From: a virus
Direction: 5' to 3' (one strand)
IMG/VR virus record: IMGVR_UViG_3300031722_000093
Coordinates: 1-36,885 of that record
DNA length: 36,885 bases
The translations under genes were made by a program, and so were the position numbers. This document shows positions 6,518 to 36,885 of the stretch, one piece after another. How positions within the stretch are numbered: position 1 is the stretch's first letter; each line of letters begins with the position of its first letter. The notes beneath the pieces are model-generated. The model did not search any database. It saw only the letters and a list, made by a program, of their open reading frames with translations, and was not told where the DNA came from.

Positions 6518-6550
6518 CTTCCGTGCCTCCTTACTCCTAACTCCAAAAAA

Positions 6551-6622
6551 CTGAGAGGGTGGGGGTCGAACCCACGATACAGCGATTAACAGTCGCTTGC
6601 CTTACCGCTTGGCTACCTCTCA
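6551..6622 (-). tRNA. tRNA-Asn (GUU)
   Basis: A full cloverleaf folds on the minus strand. The acceptor is TGAGAGG/CCTCTCA (7 bp), the D arm lies within GCCAAGCGGTAAGGC, the anticodon stem is AGCGA/TCGCT with loop CTGTTAA (anticodon GTT), and the T arm is GTGGG-TTCGACC-CCCAC. The discriminator is G and no CCA is encoded. The D arm and U1-A72 pair look more like a tRNA-Gln body, while the anticodon reads Asn codons. It lies in the leftward operon between the 44-aa and 56-aa genes and is likely cut from that transcript. Confidence 0.9.
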
Positions 6623-6751
6623 ATAAATGTCGCTCTTTCTCGACTGTCATTTCGTTTTTGCGGATTTGAACGTCAATAAACCGGCTTTATATGCCAATAC
6701 AGGCTCTCAATTTAGTGTTTAAAGTCGTGGTAACTGAGTAAATCTGACTTT

Positions 6752-11435: not shown

Positions 11436-13409
11436 ATGACGATTGAATTAACAGAAAACACCGAACAAATAGACAAAGAAAAAGCCGTTTCACAAGTTGT
11501 AAGCAACTTTAAGGCCTTTGACACTCAAAGACTGCCTCACAAGCAGATTATGAACTTGTTACGTCCTAAATTGTATTTATTGGGTGATGATACCTTGAAA
11601 TACTATGAGAGAAAATCCGAAACAAAGGACGATTGGAAGTCAAAAGCTGAAACAAATGTTTTATACTCTTTGTCCGAAACTTTCAAAGCATTTTTGAAGG
11701 AAAATTCATACAAAGAATTAGACAATTTATTCGATGTTGATGGCGAAAACAATGAAGTAACTGAGCAAGCGAACATCCAAAAACAATTCCTTGTCAAAAA
11801 AGCCGAAGAAATGGGACTTTCAAAGACTTTTGATAAAGCTATCGAACACTTTATGTTATCCGGAGAAGTTAATTTATTTTGTAAATGGACTGAGCGTTAT
11901 AAAATCATCAAACGTAACAAAGACCAATACGACGCTATTGTCAAAAAAGTAGATGCAAAATTCAAGCCTATAATCACTATTGAGGACGGTTTGCCTACTG
12001 AGAAATCAAGAGTTGAGATTCTATCGGAAGCAAATGAGAGAATGACTTTAAGAGTTCCGGAGTATATTGGAGCTGATGTTGAAGCAATCCATCCGATGAA
12101 TATTGTATATGATAGTGCTGATTTAGATAATCCGCATTGTCTTTTTGTTATTAAGTCTTGGGAAAACCCTGAAAATGTAATAAACAATGACCTTTACGAT
12201 ATTGATGAGGAAACTAAAACCTTCTTAAAAACTACTGTAAAAGATAAAAAAGAGACTAATATTTTACCGGAAAATGTTAAATTTGAAGAAATTACGCAAG
12301 GTGATAAGGTCGAAGTCCTTAGTTTCTTTGGTGATGTTACAGTCGATGGAAAATTCTATCATAATTGGTCGGGAGCAATCGTCGGCAGAACTAAACTTAT
12401 TTTATGGGAAGAAAACCGCTTCGGTGAAAGCCCAATCATTCACTATGCACCGCTTGAAATGCCTGAGAGCAGACGTGGAGTGCCGATTCTGTATTCTATT
12501 TACGGGATTGATAAAATACAAAATAAATTATTCAATGATGCGGTTGATATTTCATCTTTGAGAAAAAATAAACCTTGCAAAGCTCCTAAAGGATTTTTCA
12601 AGGAAAAAGACAATTCAGTTTATCCAGGTAAAATCACAGAATACGAAGCAGATGCCGAAGATCCGAGAGCAATTATCCAAGAAGTTTACGAAAACACTTT
12701 GGATCAATTCTTGATGAAGGAATTGGATGCACTTACAAGCCAAATCTCTGGTATTTTCCCGAATATGCAAGGCCAACAACAAGATATGAAGTCAACAGCA
12801 ACGGAAATCAATGCTCAGGTTCAGGGACAGACTACACGGCTTCAATATAACATCGATGGATTGAATAAATATGGATTCATAAAAACTATTATTCGTGTCG
12901 CCGATTTATATGCTGATAATTCAACCGGAGACGAAACTTTCACGGTTCAAAATCAAGGAAAACTCGAAAAGCAAGTCATAACAGATGCAATCCGTCAACA
13001 GGATTATTCATATTCTTATAACGATAGAAGTGCATTAGTGAGACAAAAAGCCAACTTCCAACAGATTTTACAGCTTACTACACAAGCAATGCAAGATCCG
13101 GAACTTAGAGAAAATATAAATGTTCTTGAAATGTACAAAGAAGGTTTGTTGCTTAATGGCATTGTAAACATTGATAAATTGGTTTACAGCGATGAAGAAA
13201 AACAACAAAGAAAAATAGAAGTTCAACGAAAGGAAATGCAAGCTCAAATCCAACAATTACAAGTTGCTTTACAACAGGCTCAACAAGCCGGTGATGTAAA
13301 CAAAGTCAATGAGATTCAAATGCAATTAAACCAAATAATGCAAAGTGCTAATAATATGCAACAAAATCCGGCTCAGATGCCACAACAAATGCAACAAGGA
13401 GGAGTTTAA
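11436..13409 (+). CDS. Portal protein (P22/T7 podovirus type)
   Basis: A 657-aa protein in the position and of the size of podoviral portals (head-tail connectors). Features are an N-terminal helical domain, LLRPKLYLLGDDTLKYY, a central beta region with RVPEYIGADVEAIHPMNIVYD and a stem-helix region ending DQFLMKELDALTSQISGIFP. The last 80 residues are Gln-rich coiled coil (QAQIQQLQVALQQAQQAG), like the barrel of P22 portal. It forms the dodecameric ring through which DNA enters. The 3' end has a ribosome site for the next gene inside it (AAGGAGGAG). Confidence 0.88.
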   Translation: MTIELTENTEQIDKEKAVSQVVSNFKAFDTQRLPHKQIMNLLRPKLYLLGDDTLKYYERKSETKDDWKSKAETNVLYSLSETFKAFLKENSYKELDNLFDVDGENNEVTEQANIQKQFLVKKAEEMGLSKTFDKAIEHFMLSGEVNLFCKWTERYKIIKRNKDQYDAIVKKVDAKFKPIITIEDGLPTEKSRVEILSEANERMTLRVPEYIGADVEAIHPMNIVYDSADLDNPHCLFVIKSWENPENVINNDLYDIDEETKTFLKTTVKDKKETNILPENVKFEEITQGDKVEVLSFFGDVTVDGKFYHNWSGAIVGRTKLILWEENRFGESPIIHYAPLEMPESRRGVPILYSIYGIDKIQNKLFNDAVDISSLRKNKPCKAPKGFFKEKDNSVYPGKITEYEADAEDPRAIIQEVYENTLDQFLMKELDALTSQISGIFPNMQGQQQDMKSTATEINAQVQGQTTRLQYNIDGLNKYGFIKTIIRVADLYADNSTGDETFTVQNQGKLEKQVITDAIRQQDYSYSYNDRSALVRQKANFQQILQLTTQAMQDPELRENINVLEMYKEGLLLNGIVNIDKLVYSDEEKQQRKIEVQRKEMQAQIQQLQVALQQAQQAGDVNKVNEIQMQLNQIMQSANNMQQNPAQMPQQMQQGGV

Positions 13410-16216: not shown

Positions 16217-16870
16217 ATGAACATTCAAGATGTTATGACATTAGCAAGCCAAAAGGCGTGGTCGCCGTTTAGTAGTAGCCAATCTACTTTCGGAACTCCG
16301 GCCAACGCCACAATGCTTGCCGAATTTAATAGTGGGATGGCTTATCTGACTAACCGGTCAGATTTTCCGTTCCAAAAAGATACAACAAAATGCTCAACAC
16401 AGGCAAATGAAAGCACTTGTTTTTTAGATGTTGGGGTTGTTGAAAAAATATATATTGATGGAGGCACGGACTATCTTGAAAGAATAGAAAAAAATGTTTT
16501 TCTTGACAATCAAAAAGGAGAGCCAAAACAATATTATTTGGATTATAGTAGCAATTCTTTAATTTTGCACTTATATCCTATTCCGGATAAGTCATACGAC
16601 GTAAATGTCGAATACCAAGTCTCAAAGTTTGTAGCGGATGCAAACTCCGAAGCTAAAGACAGATTCACAGTTGCGACCGATACACTTAATATTCCGGAAC
16701 AGCTCCAAAATCTATATTGGGAGTGTTTAATTCTCCGTGCGATGCAAACCGGCATAAAAGATAATACCGATGAAAACTATCAACCGATAAAAGAGGAATT
16801 TGGAGACCTTTGGAGATTATTTGTCCAAAAAACAAATCCGAATATCGGTAGTAAAAGGAATGTAATTTGA
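16217..16870 (+). CDS. Head-tail connector/adaptor (P22 gp4 or T7 gp11-like)
   Basis: A protein of 217 aa beginning MNIQDVMTLASQKAWSPFSS. It has a region predicted as beta strands in the middle (QYYLDYSSNSLILHLYPIPDKSYDVNVEY) and a helical C-terminus (LQNLYWECLILRAMQTG). This matches the podoviral adaptor that binds under the portal. It sits exactly where such a gene is expected, before the gp10-like protein. Its stop TGA overlaps the TTG start of the next gene. Family call is from pattern and position, so moderate. Confidence 0.72.
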   Translation: MNIQDVMTLASQKAWSPFSSSQSTFGTPANATMLAEFNSGMAYLTNRSDFPFQKDTTKCSTQANESTCFLDVGVVEKIYIDGGTDYLERIEKNVFLDNQKGEPKQYYLDYSSNSLILHLYPIPDKSYDVNVEYQVSKFVADANSEAKDRFTVATDTLNIPEQLQNLYWECLILRAMQTGIKDNTDENYQPIKEEFGDLWRLFVQKTNPNIGSKRNVI

Positions 16871-18456
16871 GTTATTCTTTACCTGATGTAAATTATCAAG
16901 ATTTTGGGGGAATAAGAGAGCATAATGGCGTAAATGCCAATGGCTCTATTTCTGCTCTGAAAGCTACAAATGTTGAATTGTACCGTTATGGGCTTGGAGC
17001 TAATAAGGGCATCCGAAGCGTGCTTGGAAATTCATTGTATATCGCCATCGGATCAGGTTATAGTATTATCGACAAATGGGAAACTACCCATAATGGTAAA
17101 AAATATCTGATTGCTTATGCCGAAAACTCTGCAAACGGTTCTCTTTTCAATATTGCGACTGTAAACGGAGTTTTAACTTCAATTCCATTAAAAACAAATC
17201 TTACGAAAACCGGAGAAGGAAATGCAATCTCTGTAAAAGCAAACACAATCGACATTTACGATAGATTTATTTTCAGTAATGGCGAGGAATTTGTAAGCGT
17301 AAGATTTGATGAAAGCGGAAGCTCAACAGTTCAAAATATTAATCCCGTTGACTTTGAGGGACGTACAATCAAAGGACTTTCAATGTGTGAATACAATGGA
17401 AGTTTGGTTGTTGCCTCTAAAGGAATTGGCGTAAGTGCATCAAAACAAGGTGACGTTTTTACTTTCAATGCCAATAGCGTTGATAGTAATGGAGCATCAC
17501 TCGCAACAAATAGTTGGTATGTTGGCTTTTCCAAAGAAGTAAATGCGGTTGCACCTTACGCAAACGAGCTTATCTGCTTTACTGACACCGACAGCACGGC
17601 ATTTTCAGGAACTCCGGTTGCTCTTTCATCATTCACAAAGAGAAGTGCCGGTCTCGGCGGTTGTGCGAGCTATTCTAGTTGGGTACAACACGATAAATAC
17701 TTATTTTTCTATGATGAGCATCAAAAGAATCTTTATTGTTATATGCAAGACCCCGACACCGGAAAAACTCTCTTGGGTGATCCAATTGCCACAGAAATTC
17801 AATCATATTTTTCGGCTGAGTTTAAAAGATGCCGTTTATATTCTTGCATTACCGGAACTCGTAACGAGATTTGGATGATAATTAATGATGATATTTTGGT
17901 TTTTGATTATTATAATAAAGAATGGTGCGAACGAAAAGAGCCTACTACTGTTAATTGCATAGGATTATACAAAGACCTTTTGCTTTCCGGAGACAATACA
18001 GGAAATTTGTATATTGAACACGTCAATCGAAATTTTAATGGAATTTTTGAAGGAAGTTCTTACGAAACACAATTAATCAATTTTGGTTCAAGCTCAAATA
18101 TTAAAAAGCAAAAAACCCCTATTTGTATCACTCTGAATAAATCTTTTAATAATAATTTCTTTATTGAGCTTACGGTTGACAATGAAGTATTAGAGCCGGT
18201 ACATATTACCTCAAATTCTTCCGGATTAACCGGTATATTTGGCGATGATACTGAGATAATGGTGGATAATGACACTTTCGACGTTGCTTTATTCGCTAGT
18301 GAGGATGAATACGGACAAAATGTTGTAAACATTGCTTTAACATCTTGGTACACTTTAAAAATTCGGTTCTTCACTCAAAGTGAGGCCGAAGATTTTGCAA
18401 TCCAATCGGTTGAGTTCAAACGTGTAAAAATGAAAAATAAGACTTTGGGAATATGA
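16867..18456 (+). CDS. gp10-like packaged-DNA stabilisation / tail hub protein
   Basis: A 529-aa beta-rich protein with repeated short strands (GKKYLIAYAENS, YNGSLVVASKGIG, RNEIWMIINDDILVFDYYNKEW), like the beta-propeller of P22 gp10. It would plug the connector after packaging. Start is TTG 16867 overlapping the previous stop, with AAAGGAA upstream. The ending VEFKRVKMKNKTLGI and a C-terminal beta domain recall other podoviral hub proteins. Position between adaptor and internal proteins supports the call. Confidence 0.7.
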   Translation: MSYSLPDVNYQDFGGIREHNGVNANGSISALKATNVELYRYGLGANKGIRSVLGNSLYIAIGSGYSIIDKWETTHNGKKYLIAYAENSANGSLFNIATVNGVLTSIPLKTNLTKTGEGNAISVKANTIDIYDRFIFSNGEEFVSVRFDESGSSTVQNINPVDFEGRTIKGLSMCEYNGSLVVASKGIGVSASKQGDVFTFNANSVDSNGASLATNSWYVGFSKEVNAVAPYANELICFTDTDSTAFSGTPVALSSFTKRSAGLGGCASYSSWVQHDKYLFFYDEHQKNLYCYMQDPDTGKTLLGDPIATEIQSYFSAEFKRCRLYSCITGTRNEIWMIINDDILVFDYYNKEWCERKEPTTVNCIGLYKDLLLSGDNTGNLYIEHVNRNFNGIFEGSSYETQLINFGSSSNIKKQKTPICITLNKSFNNNFFIELTVDNEVLEPVHITSNSSGLTGIFGDDTEIMVDNDTFDVALFASEDEYGQNVVNIALTSWYTLKIRFFTQSEAEDFAIQSVEFKRVKMKNKTLGI

Positions 18457-18830
18457 TAATAGAGAGACCTTTTGACAAAAAAGCAATTTCCGACTTGTAC
18501 AATGCTCGTCCGGAGGAGTTCCAACCAACCGCATTAGACTTTATCTTGTCTGACGAACTAAACGCTAGGAATCAAATTTATTGCTTTTATACGGATGATT
18601 TAAAAACACTTCTCGGAGTAATATATTTTACCGAAAGAGATGGAAATTTATACATAAATGGATTTAGTGTTCCAAAAAATTTAAGAAACATAATAACAGC
18701 CCTAGAAATAATTATAAAGTTTATGGACTGTGATTTATATTCAAATACGACATCAAAATCGGCCGTATTTGTATTAAGAAAAGTAGGTTTTGAAAAAATT
18801 TCACATAATTTATATAGGAGGTTAAAATAA
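18453..18830 (+). CDS. GNAT-fold protein, T7 gp13-like position
   Basis: A protein of 125 aa with the shape of an N-acetyltransferase. It has an N-terminal helix (KAISDLYNARPEEF), central strands LLGVIYFTERDGNLYINGFSVPK, a helix RNIITALEIIIKFM, and the GNAT-like end AVFVLRKVGFEKISHNLYRR. The acetyl-CoA loop (Q/RxxGxG/A) is not seen, so it may lack activity. In T7 a GNAT-like gp13 precedes the internal core genes 14-16. The same gene order here suggests a role in virion assembly, not acetylation. Confidence 0.65.
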   Translation: MIIERPFDKKAISDLYNARPEEFQPTALDFILSDELNARNQIYCFYTDDLKTLLGVIYFTERDGNLYINGFSVPKNLRNIITALEIIIKFMDCDLYSNTTSKSAVFVLRKVGFEKISHNLYRRLK

Positions 18831-19627
18831 TGGGAAAAGATGCAGACGGTGCGGGAAACTACGCATCAACAACAGTAAATCCGACACTCTACGGATCTTC
18901 AACAACTAATCAAGGTGGCACAACTTACAATCCGACAGATTTTGAAAAATCTTTGGTAAGCTCAACTCAGGGCGGAATTTCTAAAACTTTAAGCGAATTG
19001 ATGAATCCGACTTATGATAGTACCGATTTTAACCAATGGAAAAGTGATTTACAATCTCAACAACAAAACGGATTTGAGAATAATGTTGTAAATCCTATGA
19101 TTTCAAGAGGCCTTATTGGTACGAGTGGAGCTGCAAATATAGCCAATCAATACGGAAGTACAATGAATCAGCAGACTTCCGACTTGATGGATAAATATAA
19201 CACTAAAAATTCAAACCTATTAACTCAATTAATGGGCGTTTACGCTACTCCTTACGATATGATGAAAGGTACTAGTGGAATGTCTCAAAGTCTTTCTAAT
19301 AATGTAAGCAATTATAATTTAGAAAATACAAAATTAAAAATGGCTCAACAAGCTGTTAATGATGCAAAAACACAGCAATATGTACAGGCTGGAACGCAAG
19401 CGGCTATGATGTTGTCTGATATAAATACTAAGAAAAATATTAGAAAAATCGGTGAGAAAAACGGCATAAATATTTATGAATTTGAATATAAGCCGGAATA
19501 CAAACAGCCGGAAGGGAAGCATATCGGAGTAATAGCCCAAGAGGTTGAATATATACCAAATGCAGTAAAAGAAATTAATGGATTAAAGCACGTTGATTAT
19601 TCTGTGATAAATAAACTAATAGCTTAG
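18830..19627 (+). CDS. Virion protein with C-terminal peptidase S74 chaperone domain
   Basis: A protein of 265 aa. Residues 1-190 are Ser/Thr/Asn/Gln-rich with helical stretches (GLIGTSGAANIANQYGS), as in phage internal or ejection proteins. Residues 195-265 form an intramolecular chaperone (S74) domain with LSDINTKKNI, IYEFEYK, HIGVIAQEVE, P-AVKE and a VDYS end. The Ser-Lys pair with spacing five (S196, K201) fits the self-cleavage dyad of the family. S74 domains usually end trimeric fibres, yet this gene opens a block expected to encode ejection proteins. A tail needle or fibre is the alternative. GGAGG precedes the ATG. Confidence 0.75.
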   Translation: MGKDADGAGNYASTTVNPTLYGSSTTNQGGTTYNPTDFEKSLVSSTQGGISKTLSELMNPTYDSTDFNQWKSDLQSQQQNGFENNVVNPMISRGLIGTSGAANIANQYGSTMNQQTSDLMDKYNTKNSNLLTQLMGVYATPYDMMKGTSGMSQSLSNNVSNYNLENTKLKMAQQAVNDAKTQQYVQAGTQAAMMLSDINTKKNIRKIGEKNGINIYEFEYKPEYKQPEGKHIGVIAQEVEYIPNAVKEINGLKHVDYSVINKLIA

Positions 19628-20061
19628 TAACCGTATCTAATGCCATTTAAGGTGTTATTTATACTATTTAAATTATTATTTGTATACAATGTTTGGAGAG
19701 CATTTAAACCTTGAAACTTCAAACCCTGTTTGGCAATATAATTCTGTTGAGATTGATAGTGGGTATTATTTTTATTTAATTCTATCATTCTCATTTGTTG
19801 ATAATAATTGCTTCTTTCTTGGACAGGTAATTGTAAAGCTTGAACTAATTGATTTTGAAAATCATTTTTCCTAGAAAACCAATAATCGGCTTCTTTATTA
19901 TTGGCTCTTGTAGAACTTAAAATATAGCTCGCCGGATTATGTTGATTTGAAACGTTTTGGTATTCATACGGGCAAAACTCTCCCCATTGTGGAGGCTGAA
20001 TATCTGCAAAAACAGGGTTTGCAAAAACTAAAAGTACAAACATAATAAATAATTTTTTCAT
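19624..20061 (-). CDS. Exported Gln/Asn-rich protein; probable lysogenic-conversion (moron) gene
   Basis: This is the only minus-strand gene between 8.4 and 30.5 kb. The ATG at 20061 follows GAGGTGTATT. The protein (145 aa) begins with a classical signal peptide: MKK, a hydrophobic core LFIMFVLLVF, then ANPVFA with probable cleavage after Ala19. The mature part is Gln/Asn/Tyr-rich with one Cys and no membrane helix, so a periplasmic or secreted fate is likely. It is tail-to-tail with the S74 gene (4-bp overlap) and has its own AT-rich upstream stretch. Such insertions are typical morons expressed in the prophage. Function is unknown. Confidence 0.75.
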   Translation of the reverse strand: MKKLFIMFVLLVFANPVFADIQPPQWGEFCPYEYQNVSNQHNPASYILSSTRANNKEADYWFSRKNDFQNQLVQALQLPVQERSNYYQQMRMIELNKNNTHYQSQQNYIAKQGLKFQGLNALQTLYTNNNLNSINNTLNGIRYGY

Positions 20062-20125
20062 AATACACCTCACTTTTTTTAAATATATTAACACAAAAAT
20101 ACAAAAATCAATGAAAGGACGAAAA
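20062..20125 (-). promoter_or_regulatory. Probable promoter region of the exported-protein gene
   Basis: Read on the minus strand, TTGATT and TTGTAT (-35-like) are followed by TAATATATT (-10-like) and then GAGGT before the ATG. Spacing is not ideal for any one pair. The same bases serve, on the plus strand, as the spacer and ribosome site (AAAGGAC) for the next late gene. Confidence 0.4.
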
Positions 20126-21193
20126 ATGAGCCTACTAGATATGTTACTAGGACGACAAGCTCAAGTAAACGAAAAACCAATCGTATTTGAGCCTTTACAG
20201 TTGCCACAAAATCAACCACAGCCTCAGCAACAACCGGCACAACAATCTCCGTTATTAAAACAAATAATGTTAAATAATAACGGTGGGATGATATCGCAAG
20301 CTGATATTAATAAATTTTATCACGATGGGATGATGAACGCACAAAATCAGCAAATGGAAGAACAGCCGATAATTTCAGGAGGATTGGATGCAACGCCCGA
20401 GAAAACTGGACTTTTACAAGATTTAATCAGCGGCTATAAAGATAATGCTAACAATGGTTTCCAAGTCGATAATTTAAGACCGGTAGCGGATAAAAGTTTA
20501 GCAAATAAGGTCGGTGAAAGTTTCGGAACTTTTAAAAGATTTGCTACTAGCCCTTATGGTGCCGGTTTATTATCAGCTGCAGTCGGCACGGCAATGGGAG
20601 GGGATGGAGCGGCCGCTTTATCCGCAGGGCTAAACGCCGGAACAAAAAACCAAACTATGGCTAATCAAGATAAACTCTACAGAGAATCATTAAAAAATGA
20701 GGATATAGACACCTCAAATATAAGCGGATATTTAAATTCTGACGATTACGAAAAGATCACAAATGCAAATTATAAAAATGCTTATAGAAAATACTTGATG
20801 GACAAAACCGTAACAACAGCCAAAAGTAAAACAATTACTTTGGGTGAATTAATGAATGTTTCACCGGAATATAAAAAATACATTATGAGCCAATATGACT
20901 TCTCCAACGGCCAAAATGCAGATTTGCTCGAACAGGAGATGCCGGTTGATATGCTTAAAAATACCGGATGGCTTCCAAAAGAGGTAAATATGAATTACTC
21001 CGGTCATACTTCAAAAGAAATACACAAATCCGGAAGCACGACAAGTAATATCGTCCATAGTGGCGGTACTAACAGCACTAAAACAAATTACGGAGCTAAA
21101 TACCCCGAACCCGTGAAAGATGGAACAGTTATTAGGAATAAAGAAACCGGCGAACGTATGGTGCGTAAAGGTGGGAAATGGCAAAAACTGTAA
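20126..21193 (+). CDS. Putative internal virion / ejection protein
   Basis: A protein of 355 aa. A Gln/Pro-rich N-terminal region (about 25-50) is followed by a Gly/Ala-rich hydrophobic stretch (AGLLSAAVGTAMGGDGAAAL, about 150-170), as in podoviral ejection proteins that enter membranes. The polar C-terminus ends with a KGGKWQKL motif. Start at ATG 20126 follows AAAGGAC; the ATG at 20111 has no site. It overlaps the giant downstream gene by 16 bp. The order of three such genes after the GNAT-like one parallels T7 14-15-16 and P22 7-20-16. Confidence 0.65.
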   Translation: MSLLDMLLGRQAQVNEKPIVFEPLQLPQNQPQPQQQPAQQSPLLKQIMLNNNGGMISQADINKFYHDGMMNAQNQQMEEQPIISGGLDATPEKTGLLQDLISGYKDNANNGFQVDNLRPVADKSLANKVGESFGTFKRFATSPYGAGLLSAAVGTAMGGDGAAALSAGLNAGTKNQTMANQDKLYRESLKNEDIDTSNISGYLNSDDYEKITNANYKNAYRKYLMDKTVTTAKSKTITLGELMNVSPEYKKYIMSQYDFSNGQNADLLEQEMPVDMLKNTGWLPKEVNMNYSGHTSKEIHKSGSTTSNIVHSGGTNSTKTNYGAKYPEPVKDGTVIRNKETGERMVRKGGKWQKL

Positions 21194-29168: not shown

Positions 29169-29202
29169 GTTTAATTTTATGTAATTGTGCTATATTAATT
29201 TT

Positions 29203-30219
29203 ATGAGCGTAAGATTTGAAAATGGGAAGTGGTATTATAGATTTAGACTTTATGGCAAACGCCCTCACGGTGTTTGTTATGGGTGCAATACCTATGAAGA
29301 AGCGAAAGAGTTTGAAGCTGATTTAATTACAAAAATGAGTTTAATTCATCGTGGGAAAATACCGGACGACCAAATAATAACCATAAAAGAAATGTTTAAT
29401 ATTTCTATGAGAATTTCAGAGGCGAACAATGCGGAAAAAACCCACAAGGATAATTTGCACAAAGTCGAAGTATTAAGCGAGTTTTTCGGTGCGAAAAATT
29501 CTATATCTGAAATTACCCCTAGCAAGATAGAGGAATTTAAAACATATCTTATAAAAACAAAAAAACGGTCAAAGGCTACTTTTAATAGGTATTATGCTTG
29601 TTTATCAAAAGCGTTTAATGATGTAATAATCGATAAAAAATTGAATATTCAAAACCCTTGCCGGAGTGTTAAAAAATTAAAGGAAGATAACCAAATCACA
29701 AGATACCTCACCAAAGAGGAAGAAGAACGGTTGATGTCTGAGATTCCGGCTTATATGAAACCGATAATAGTATGTGCTTTATCGACCGGATTAAGGCTTT
29801 CAAACGTCCTTAATCTAAAATGGGAAAGCATAGATTTTGATGCTAATTTTATAGAAATTTTAAGACAACTGAATAAGGGACACAAAAAAATACAACTCCC
29901 AATTTCCAAAAAATTAAAACTAATTTTAGAAGAAATAGGGATTAAAAAAACTGGATTTGTTTTCATAAGTTACCGCACAAACACAAGATTTAAAAAGATA
30001 GATAACGGATTTAACGAGGCGTGCAAACGTGCAAATATTGAAAATTTCAGATTTCACGATTTAAGGCATACAGTCGCAACTCGTTTAGTAGCCAATGGTG
30101 CAGACTTAGGAACGGTTAAAGAGTATATGGGGCATAGCACTTTAGCAATGACACAAAGATATTCTCACCCCACACCTGAAAATATGCTAAAAGCTGTTGA
30201 CATTTTAGATAGTTTTTAG
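29203..30219 (+). CDS. int: Tyrosine recombinase integrase
   Basis: A 338-aa phage integrase. An N-terminal arm-binding region starts VRFENGKWYYRFRLYGKRP. The core-binding domain spans about 60-160. The catalytic residues are R198 (TGLRLSNVL), a Lys near 225 (NKGHKK), H285 and R288 (FHDLRHTVATR), H311 (MGHSTL) and Y320 (QRYSH). It recombines attP (just downstream) with a host tRNA-Tyr gene. The ATG at 29203 has no ribosome site, but TGTGCTATATT, an extended -10, ends eight bases before it, so a leaderless message is likely. Confidence 0.95.
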   Translation: MSVRFENGKWYYRFRLYGKRPHGVCYGCNTYEEAKEFEADLITKMSLIHRGKIPDDQIITIKEMFNISMRISEANNAEKTHKDNLHKVEVLSEFFGAKNSISEITPSKIEEFKTYLIKTKKRSKATFNRYYACLSKAFNDVIIDKKLNIQNPCRSVKKLKEDNQITRYLTKEEEERLMSEIPAYMKPIIVCALSTGLRLSNVLNLKWESIDFDANFIEILRQLNKGHKKIQLPISKKLKLILEEIGIKKTGFVFISYRTNTRFKKIDNGFNEACKRANIENFRFHDLRHTVATRLVANGADLGTVKEYMGHSTLAMTQRYSHPTPENMLKAVDILDSF

Positions 30220-30273: not shown

Positions 30274-30502
30274 GGGACACAAAAGGGACACAAGAAAAAA
30301 CACAAAACATTGAAAACTCAATATGGGTAGGTGCCCGAGTGGCTAAAGGGAGCAGACTGTAAATCAGAAATTTACAACGCTGTATCCCTTTTTTAGTGCC
30401 ATTTTTGCCTATTTATTGAATAAAATACAATACAATTTAATAGCCTTGAAAGTATTGATTTTACGTTGCATATTTTTTGTAGTGGGACACAGATGGGACA
30501 GA
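30274..30502. other. attP region with paired integrase arm-type sites
   Basis: Direct repeats GGGACACA occur as pairs on each side of the core: 30274 and 30285 on the left, 30484 and 30495 (GGGACAGA) on the right. Both pairs have an 11-bp period, one helical turn. This is the expected layout of integrase arm sites. The region 30220-30529 holds no gene. The core is annotated separately. Confidence 0.75.
30325..30376 (+). other. attP core: 5' half of a tRNA-Tyr gene
   Basis: Bases 30325-30365 read as tRNA-Tyr from base 1 through the anticodon loop. They comprise acceptor GGGTAGG, D arm CCC...GGG, anticodon stem GCAGA, loop CTGTAAA (anticodon GTA), then TC. After that the sequence departs from a tRNA, and no 3' half follows. 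TGTAAAT (30358-30364) and ATTTACA (30370-30376) form an inverted repeat. The crossover is probably in the anticodon loop, with the phage providing the 5' part of the gene. Confidence 0.75.
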
Positions 30503-36543: not shown

Positions 36544-36885
36544 GCAACTTCCCCCAACGAATATTCGTGATAAGTTGTTTTTTCACCGAAACGATTTGTT
36601 CCAGGTGTCGGGACTGAATTAACAACTCTCGGTTTGATTTTTTCTTCAATGGTTTGAATTATTGAAGGTAAATGTCTAAAACCATAAATTTCGTTACATT
36701 CTGCGTTTGTAATATGATGAAAACCCAAAATATGAGCCAAGATAATTTCATCTTGGCTAAATTTGTTTTCTTTTATAAATCTTTTTAAAAATTCACCGAG
36801 TTTATAAAATCCTCCGGCATAATTCTCGGGGTTTAATCGGTCTCTTTGCAGCTTGATAGCAAGCTCTTGAACCTTATCAGGTGCT
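36540..36885 (-). CDS. Winged-helix/HTH protein, main part (5' end at left edge)
   Basis: A frame of 114 codons in this copy, lacking only the first two codons, which are at the left edge (start ATG 104). Residues about 44-75 form an HTH (FSQDEIILAHILGFHHIT, AECNEIYGFRHLPSIIQTI). A wing-like end follows (VPTPGTNRFGEKTTYHEYSLGE), common in small phage HTH proteins. The TTG at 36740 is internal, not the start. It lies between the LuxR-type gene and the 108-aa gene. Confidence 0.78.
   Translation of the reverse strand, partial: APDKVQELAIKLQRDRLNPENYAGGFYKLGEFLKRFIKENKFSQDEIILAHILGFHHITNAECNEIYGFRHLPSIIQTIEEKIKPRVVNSVPTPGTNRFGEKTTYHEYSLGEVA
36787..36885. repeat. Terminal direct repeat, right copy
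   Basis: Identical to bases 1-99; see the left copy. One copy should be removed to obtain the circular genome of 36786 bp. Confidence 0.9.

Follow-up and report, generated by a model that had tools for sequence, protein, structure and literature searches.

The window, by which we mean the whole stretch of DNA analysed here, is an IMG/VR virus record of 36,885 bases in which every gene between approximately 9.6 and 30.2 kb lies on the plus strand, save for a single minus-strand gene at 19624–20061 encoding a protein of 145 amino acids (aa). An initial annotation of the sequence had drawn attention to this lone antisense gene amid plus-strand late genes, and its description of the arrangement holds. 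On the left, the gene abuts a plus-strand gene (18830–19627) for a virion protein with a C-terminal peptidase S74 domain (Pfam PF13884, E = 1e-9; PHROG 6121); the two meet tail to tail, as annotated, with stop codons that share 4 nt, and a search for a terminator at this junction found none. On the right, it is followed by the next plus-strand late gene, g20126 (20126–21193). The plus-strand genes further upstream include two conserved late genes useful as syntenic markers in relatives, one preceding the S74 gene (18453–18830) and one nozzle/tail-like (16867–18456), as well as a gene for a portal-like protein (11436–13409). The S74 domain itself (19415–19567) is confined to the window's protein, the aligned relatives sharing the N-terminal part and lacking the domain. 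A tRNA-Asn (gtt) gene lies in the early region (6550–6623, minus strand).

We place the start codon of the 145-aa reading frame at the ATG at 20061. The frame remains open upstream as far as a GTG at 20094, and the ATG is preferred because the ribosome site, GAGGTG, stands 6 nt before it and belongs to it, which agrees with the annotation of a ribosome site of the gene's own. The AT-rich divergent intergenic region (20062–20125, minus strand) also contains a sigma-70-like match, TTGATT-18-TATATT (20111–20082), so that the upstream DNA is promoter-like as had been claimed, but the match is weak (9/12) and of a kind common in this AT-rich stretch, where 20 promoter-like matches were found against 11.5 expected and, as a set, were graded not above background. 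GC content is 29% in the antisense gene vs 35–39% in its neighbours.

The protein begins with a predicted Sec signal peptide of 19 aa (aa 1–19), MKKLFIMFVLLVFANPVFA, with D as the next residue; the prediction draws on the sequence and a crude scorer, not SignalP, and upholds the annotated export signal. The Gln/Asn-rich character attributed to the mature part was likewise confirmed by counting (37 of 126 residues). No membrane segments are evident besides the cleavable-type signal peptide, and a single-sequence AlphaFold model is helical and of low confidence (pLDDT 50). The junction of the antisense gene is covered by one assembly alone. The window's major capsid protein recurs with 100% identity in two IMG/VR fragments; because both end before the antisense gene, they say nothing for or against the junction.

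A complete temperate phage of Gastranaerophilales

The record opens and closes with an exact 99-base direct terminal repeat (1–99 and 36787–36885), and the genome is therefore complete, being either circular or terminally redundant. With a tyrosine integrase at 29185–30219 (plus strand; Pfam PF00589, E = 5e-34) marking a temperate life style, the complete genome is that of a temperate podovirus-like phage. Beside the integrase lies an attP core (30320–30365, plus strand), AATATGGGTAGGTGCCCGAGTGGCTAAAGGGAGCAGACTGTAAATC, which many Candidatus Gastranaerophilales genomes match without a difference in the 5′ half of their tRNA-Tyr and its 5-base leader. The core reaches up to the anticodon loop of the tRNA from the 5′ side, unlike the usual attP, which contains the 3′ end of a tRNA. 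This identity makes the host a gut ‘melainabacterium’, the Gastranaerophilales being non-photosynthetic gut cyanobacteria. An alphaproteobacterial host, our first idea, was abandoned after the attP match; Firmicutes such as Selenomonas fit a relaxed tRNA pattern, but both among the matches listed have a T in place of the window's C.

Homologues of the portal-like protein occur in 225 of 383 Gastranaerophilales genomes, many of them flanked by the same set of late genes, which confirms the host group; named-phage relatives of the window's virion genes are too distant for use. Across the 383 genomes the portal homologues often number two per genome and some contain internal stops, so they may include domesticated elements. 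Other prophages of the group carry several antisense genes in an array within the capsid–tail interval (L222, 7412–9494; L224, 7056–14182; L231, 6274–9024), and many of these encode small membrane proteins with a WSHxLxLxG-like motif.

An exported protein family restricted to the host order

The 145-aa protein matched no named family in Pfam, NCBIfam, PHROGs, PADLOC or the PDB (PDB sequence search, E ≤ 1), and single members of the family described below gave at most scattered weak matches in these databases and INPHARED. A tblastn search of INPHARED with the protein returned no match, a strict peptide-pattern search based on the protein or alignments revealed no other phage copies in IMG/VR or GTDB contigs, and no close orthologue was found. 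The family came to light solely through profile and six-frame searches of host genomes: a single-sequence search with the protein matched 109 of 383 genomes (E ≤ 1e-4; best E = 2e-14), its best homologues being 37–39% identical over the full length, and an 11-member profile matched 127 of 286 Gastranaerophilales genomes (E ≤ 0.001). Of 292 genomes sampled across the phylum, 51 matched, all of them already in the order sample and none among the larger listed genomes. We reject a chance open reading frame on the strength of the single-sequence homologues in host genomes (E down to 2e-14). Judged by sequence, the protein belongs to an order-specific exported family with the pattern ‘PxWxxFC...YWxxR...F’, which is new in that it is not described in the databases and literature searched. 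The initial statement that the protein resembles no family is thus correct for named families and wrong in substance, a large unnamed family being present in the host order.

Family members are 107–254 aa long (mostly 107–165, chiefly 120–165), and the crude scorer assigned a signal peptide to 93 of 100. Residues W26, Y60, W61 and F68 are invariant (100/100, the window protein included). Two cysteines, at positions 75 and 86, are both present in 97 members and both missing from 3, with no member retaining just one, an all-or-none pattern as would be expected from a disulfide between them. The window protein is one of the three members without the pair, the other two being chromosomal (L178 and L182). 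The pair is hence a common feature and not strictly a defining one; membership is based on full-length similarity (E = 2e-14) together with the invariant residues. The phage copy has the signal peptide, P-x-W-x-x-F and YWxxR...F in common with the family, but lacks the cysteines and has a longer C-terminal part.

Most members are chromosomal, many with stable neighbours. In one recurrent context the gene is flanked by those for a long-chain acyl-CoA ligase and for rubrerythrin; a second comprises uvrC and a Skp/OmpH-like gene (names by eye in both cases). Members also occur in integrative elements that encode a serine recombinase together with a primase and an ArdC-like protein (L199, L201 and L202; names by eye). 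Two prophages of the window's kind have one as well: in the first (G247; L229) it stands antisense, flanked by the capsid gene and g16217, and in the second (G295; L230) it lies upstream of the portal gene. A tree of 100 members places the window protein on one branch with those of the two prophages and the elements and with two chromosomal members (support 91/79), a grouping that we regard as suggestive only because it contains long branches, that of the window protein measuring 1.08. Support was lacking for a grouping of the window protein with the cysteine-less L178 and L182, but the test did not reject it either (p-AU = 0.096).

The S74 junction is a recurrent antisense cargo slot

Relatives of the S74 protein are found in 73 of the 383 host genomes. 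Our census covers 71 S74-gene junctions in host prophages, one of which is cut by a contig end, leaving 70 intact. The gene after the S74 relative is holin-like in 51 of the 71, an amidase in 3 and a g20126 homologue in 9. In eight of these last nine, the S74 relative and the g20126 homologue are separated by 4–11 bp; the ninth (G295) has an intervening 129-aa reading frame. Insert-free junctions thus number 62 of 71 (51 + 3 + 8), so that in the window a gene has been added between two that otherwise adjoin. Another 7 of the 71 (L297–L302 and L308) have, right after S74, an antisense signal-peptide gene with YSSDG repeats that is unrelated to the window's family. The S74 junction, with the S74 gene as left edge and g20126 as right edge in the window, is therefore a recurrent antisense cargo slot, which supports the initial proposal of a moron: its anatomy is borne out by presence and absence in related phages. 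A YSSDG-like exported repeat gene also adjoins a member of the window's family in two integrative elements (L199, 9149–9442, and L202), suggesting that the exported cargo is drawn from a shared pool.

None of the 70 other intact junctions holds a member of the window's family. Other prophages of the same kind retain the virion genes without the 145-aa gene, which lies outside the conserved virion gene set; strict conservation as a virion component, the pattern that the initial annotation had set against a moron, is not seen at this junction.

Discussion

We interpret the antisense gene as a moron that is expressed by the lysogen and exported by Sec, a divergent member of a host family whose product replaces or competes with its host paralogues and so alters the cell surface or permissiveness to phages, and we give this reading a probability of roughly three in four. 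The accessory gene runs on the strand opposite to the two late virion genes between which it has been inserted in this temperate Gastranaerophilales phage. In the lysogen it would be read from its own start region; late transcription, running through it from the opposite side, would oppose its expression, and the silence of the late genes in a lysogen would leave it free. Its product would be exported to the periplasm or envelope and there most likely stand in for, or compete with, the host paralogues, changing the surface of the lysogen or how readily other phages can infect it.

What the protein does is best approached through two candidate effects, which are the likeliest and which the present evidence does not separate. 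We put somewhat short of even odds on an envelope or colonisation trait, by which the protein adds to the periplasmic or surface function of its chromosomal paralogues and benefits lysogen growth or gut survival independently of phages. It accords with the spread of the family across the order, mostly on chromosomes and beside conserved neighbours, with the occupation of the same slot in other prophages by an unrelated exported repeat protein, and with the side-by-side occurrence of both exported families in an integrative element (L199, L202); against it, the almost fixed cysteine pair is lost in the phage copy, which may therefore not simply replace the host protein. Periplasmic superinfection exclusion is a possible but less probable effect: by binding the ejection apparatus or lytic domain of an incoming phage, or an inner-membrane or periplasmic entry factor, the protein would block genome entry in the manner of T4 Spackle or P22 SieA. 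It is small, exported and, in the low-confidence model, mostly helical; like P22 sieA (PMC2629481, PMC10883804), it is encoded at a moron slot, here that of a podovirus-like phage; Spackle is a precedent for exclusion from the periplasm (PMC7677548); and exclusion would pay, given how widespread prophages of the window's type are among the hosts (225/383 genomes). However, the protein has no similarity to PADLOC and PDB families, and a mostly chromosomal family with stable neighbours (fatty-acyl-CoA ligase; uvrC/Skp-like) points to a housekeeping role in the envelope.

Decay of a captured host gene into a functionless remnant is an improbable account. The lone phage copy, its long branch (1.08) and the missing cysteine pair would be as expected of such a gene, yet the 145-codon frame is intact, the signal peptide, ribosome site and four invariant residues are all kept, and two chromosomal members that also lack the pair are themselves intact. 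The idea of a virion-associated or late lysis protein, antisense by chance, draws on the gene's position within the virion block and is highly improbable; its opposite strand, its signal peptide, the absence of the family from the 70 other intact junctions and homologues that are chiefly host chromosomal genes led us to reject a virion component. Rather unlikely, in our estimate, is a more sweeping picture in which the family moves among chromosomes, integrative elements and prophages as an exclusion or envelope-conversion factor, the S74 junction serving as a dedicated antisense exchange slot and the chromosomal copies being domesticated.

Phages of Gastranaerophilales are almost unstudied, and those papers in the literature searched that mention the order together with prophages deal with other subjects. 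The window provides a complete temperate phage with its host and integration site, a slot in which antisense cargo recurs, and an exported family found alike in the phage, in integrative elements and on the host chromosome. With these, heterologous expression can be used to test for lysogenic conversion in a gut lineage that is uncultured.

Among known systems, the P22 sieA moron and T4 Spackle are functional analogies, not relatives, and PADLOC, PDB, Pfam and PHROGs yielded no similarity of the 145-aa protein to exclusion proteins of the SieA, Spackle or Llp type. SieA of P22 is an inner-membrane superinfection exclusion protein (PMC10883804); it resembles the candidate moron product as a small envelope-directed protein from a moron of a short-tailed phage, whereas the signal peptide of the window protein is of the cleavable type, and no sequence similarity to SieA was found. 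Spackle, the periplasmic inhibitor of the T4 gp5 lysozyme (PMC7677548), is likewise small, exported and phage-encoded, but T4 is virulent, the window protein has host paralogues, and the PDB sequence search (E ≤ 1) gave no match. In position, the counterpart is the ‘ant moron’ of P22-like phages, placed between genes 16 and 9 (PMC2629481). The window phage is of a different lineage and host order, and its cargo is neither an antirepressor nor any known gene, belonging to a family common to the host chromosome and integrative elements; in both cases an accessory gene has been inserted among the late genes where related phages have other content or none, and a transcription unit of its own would be expected.
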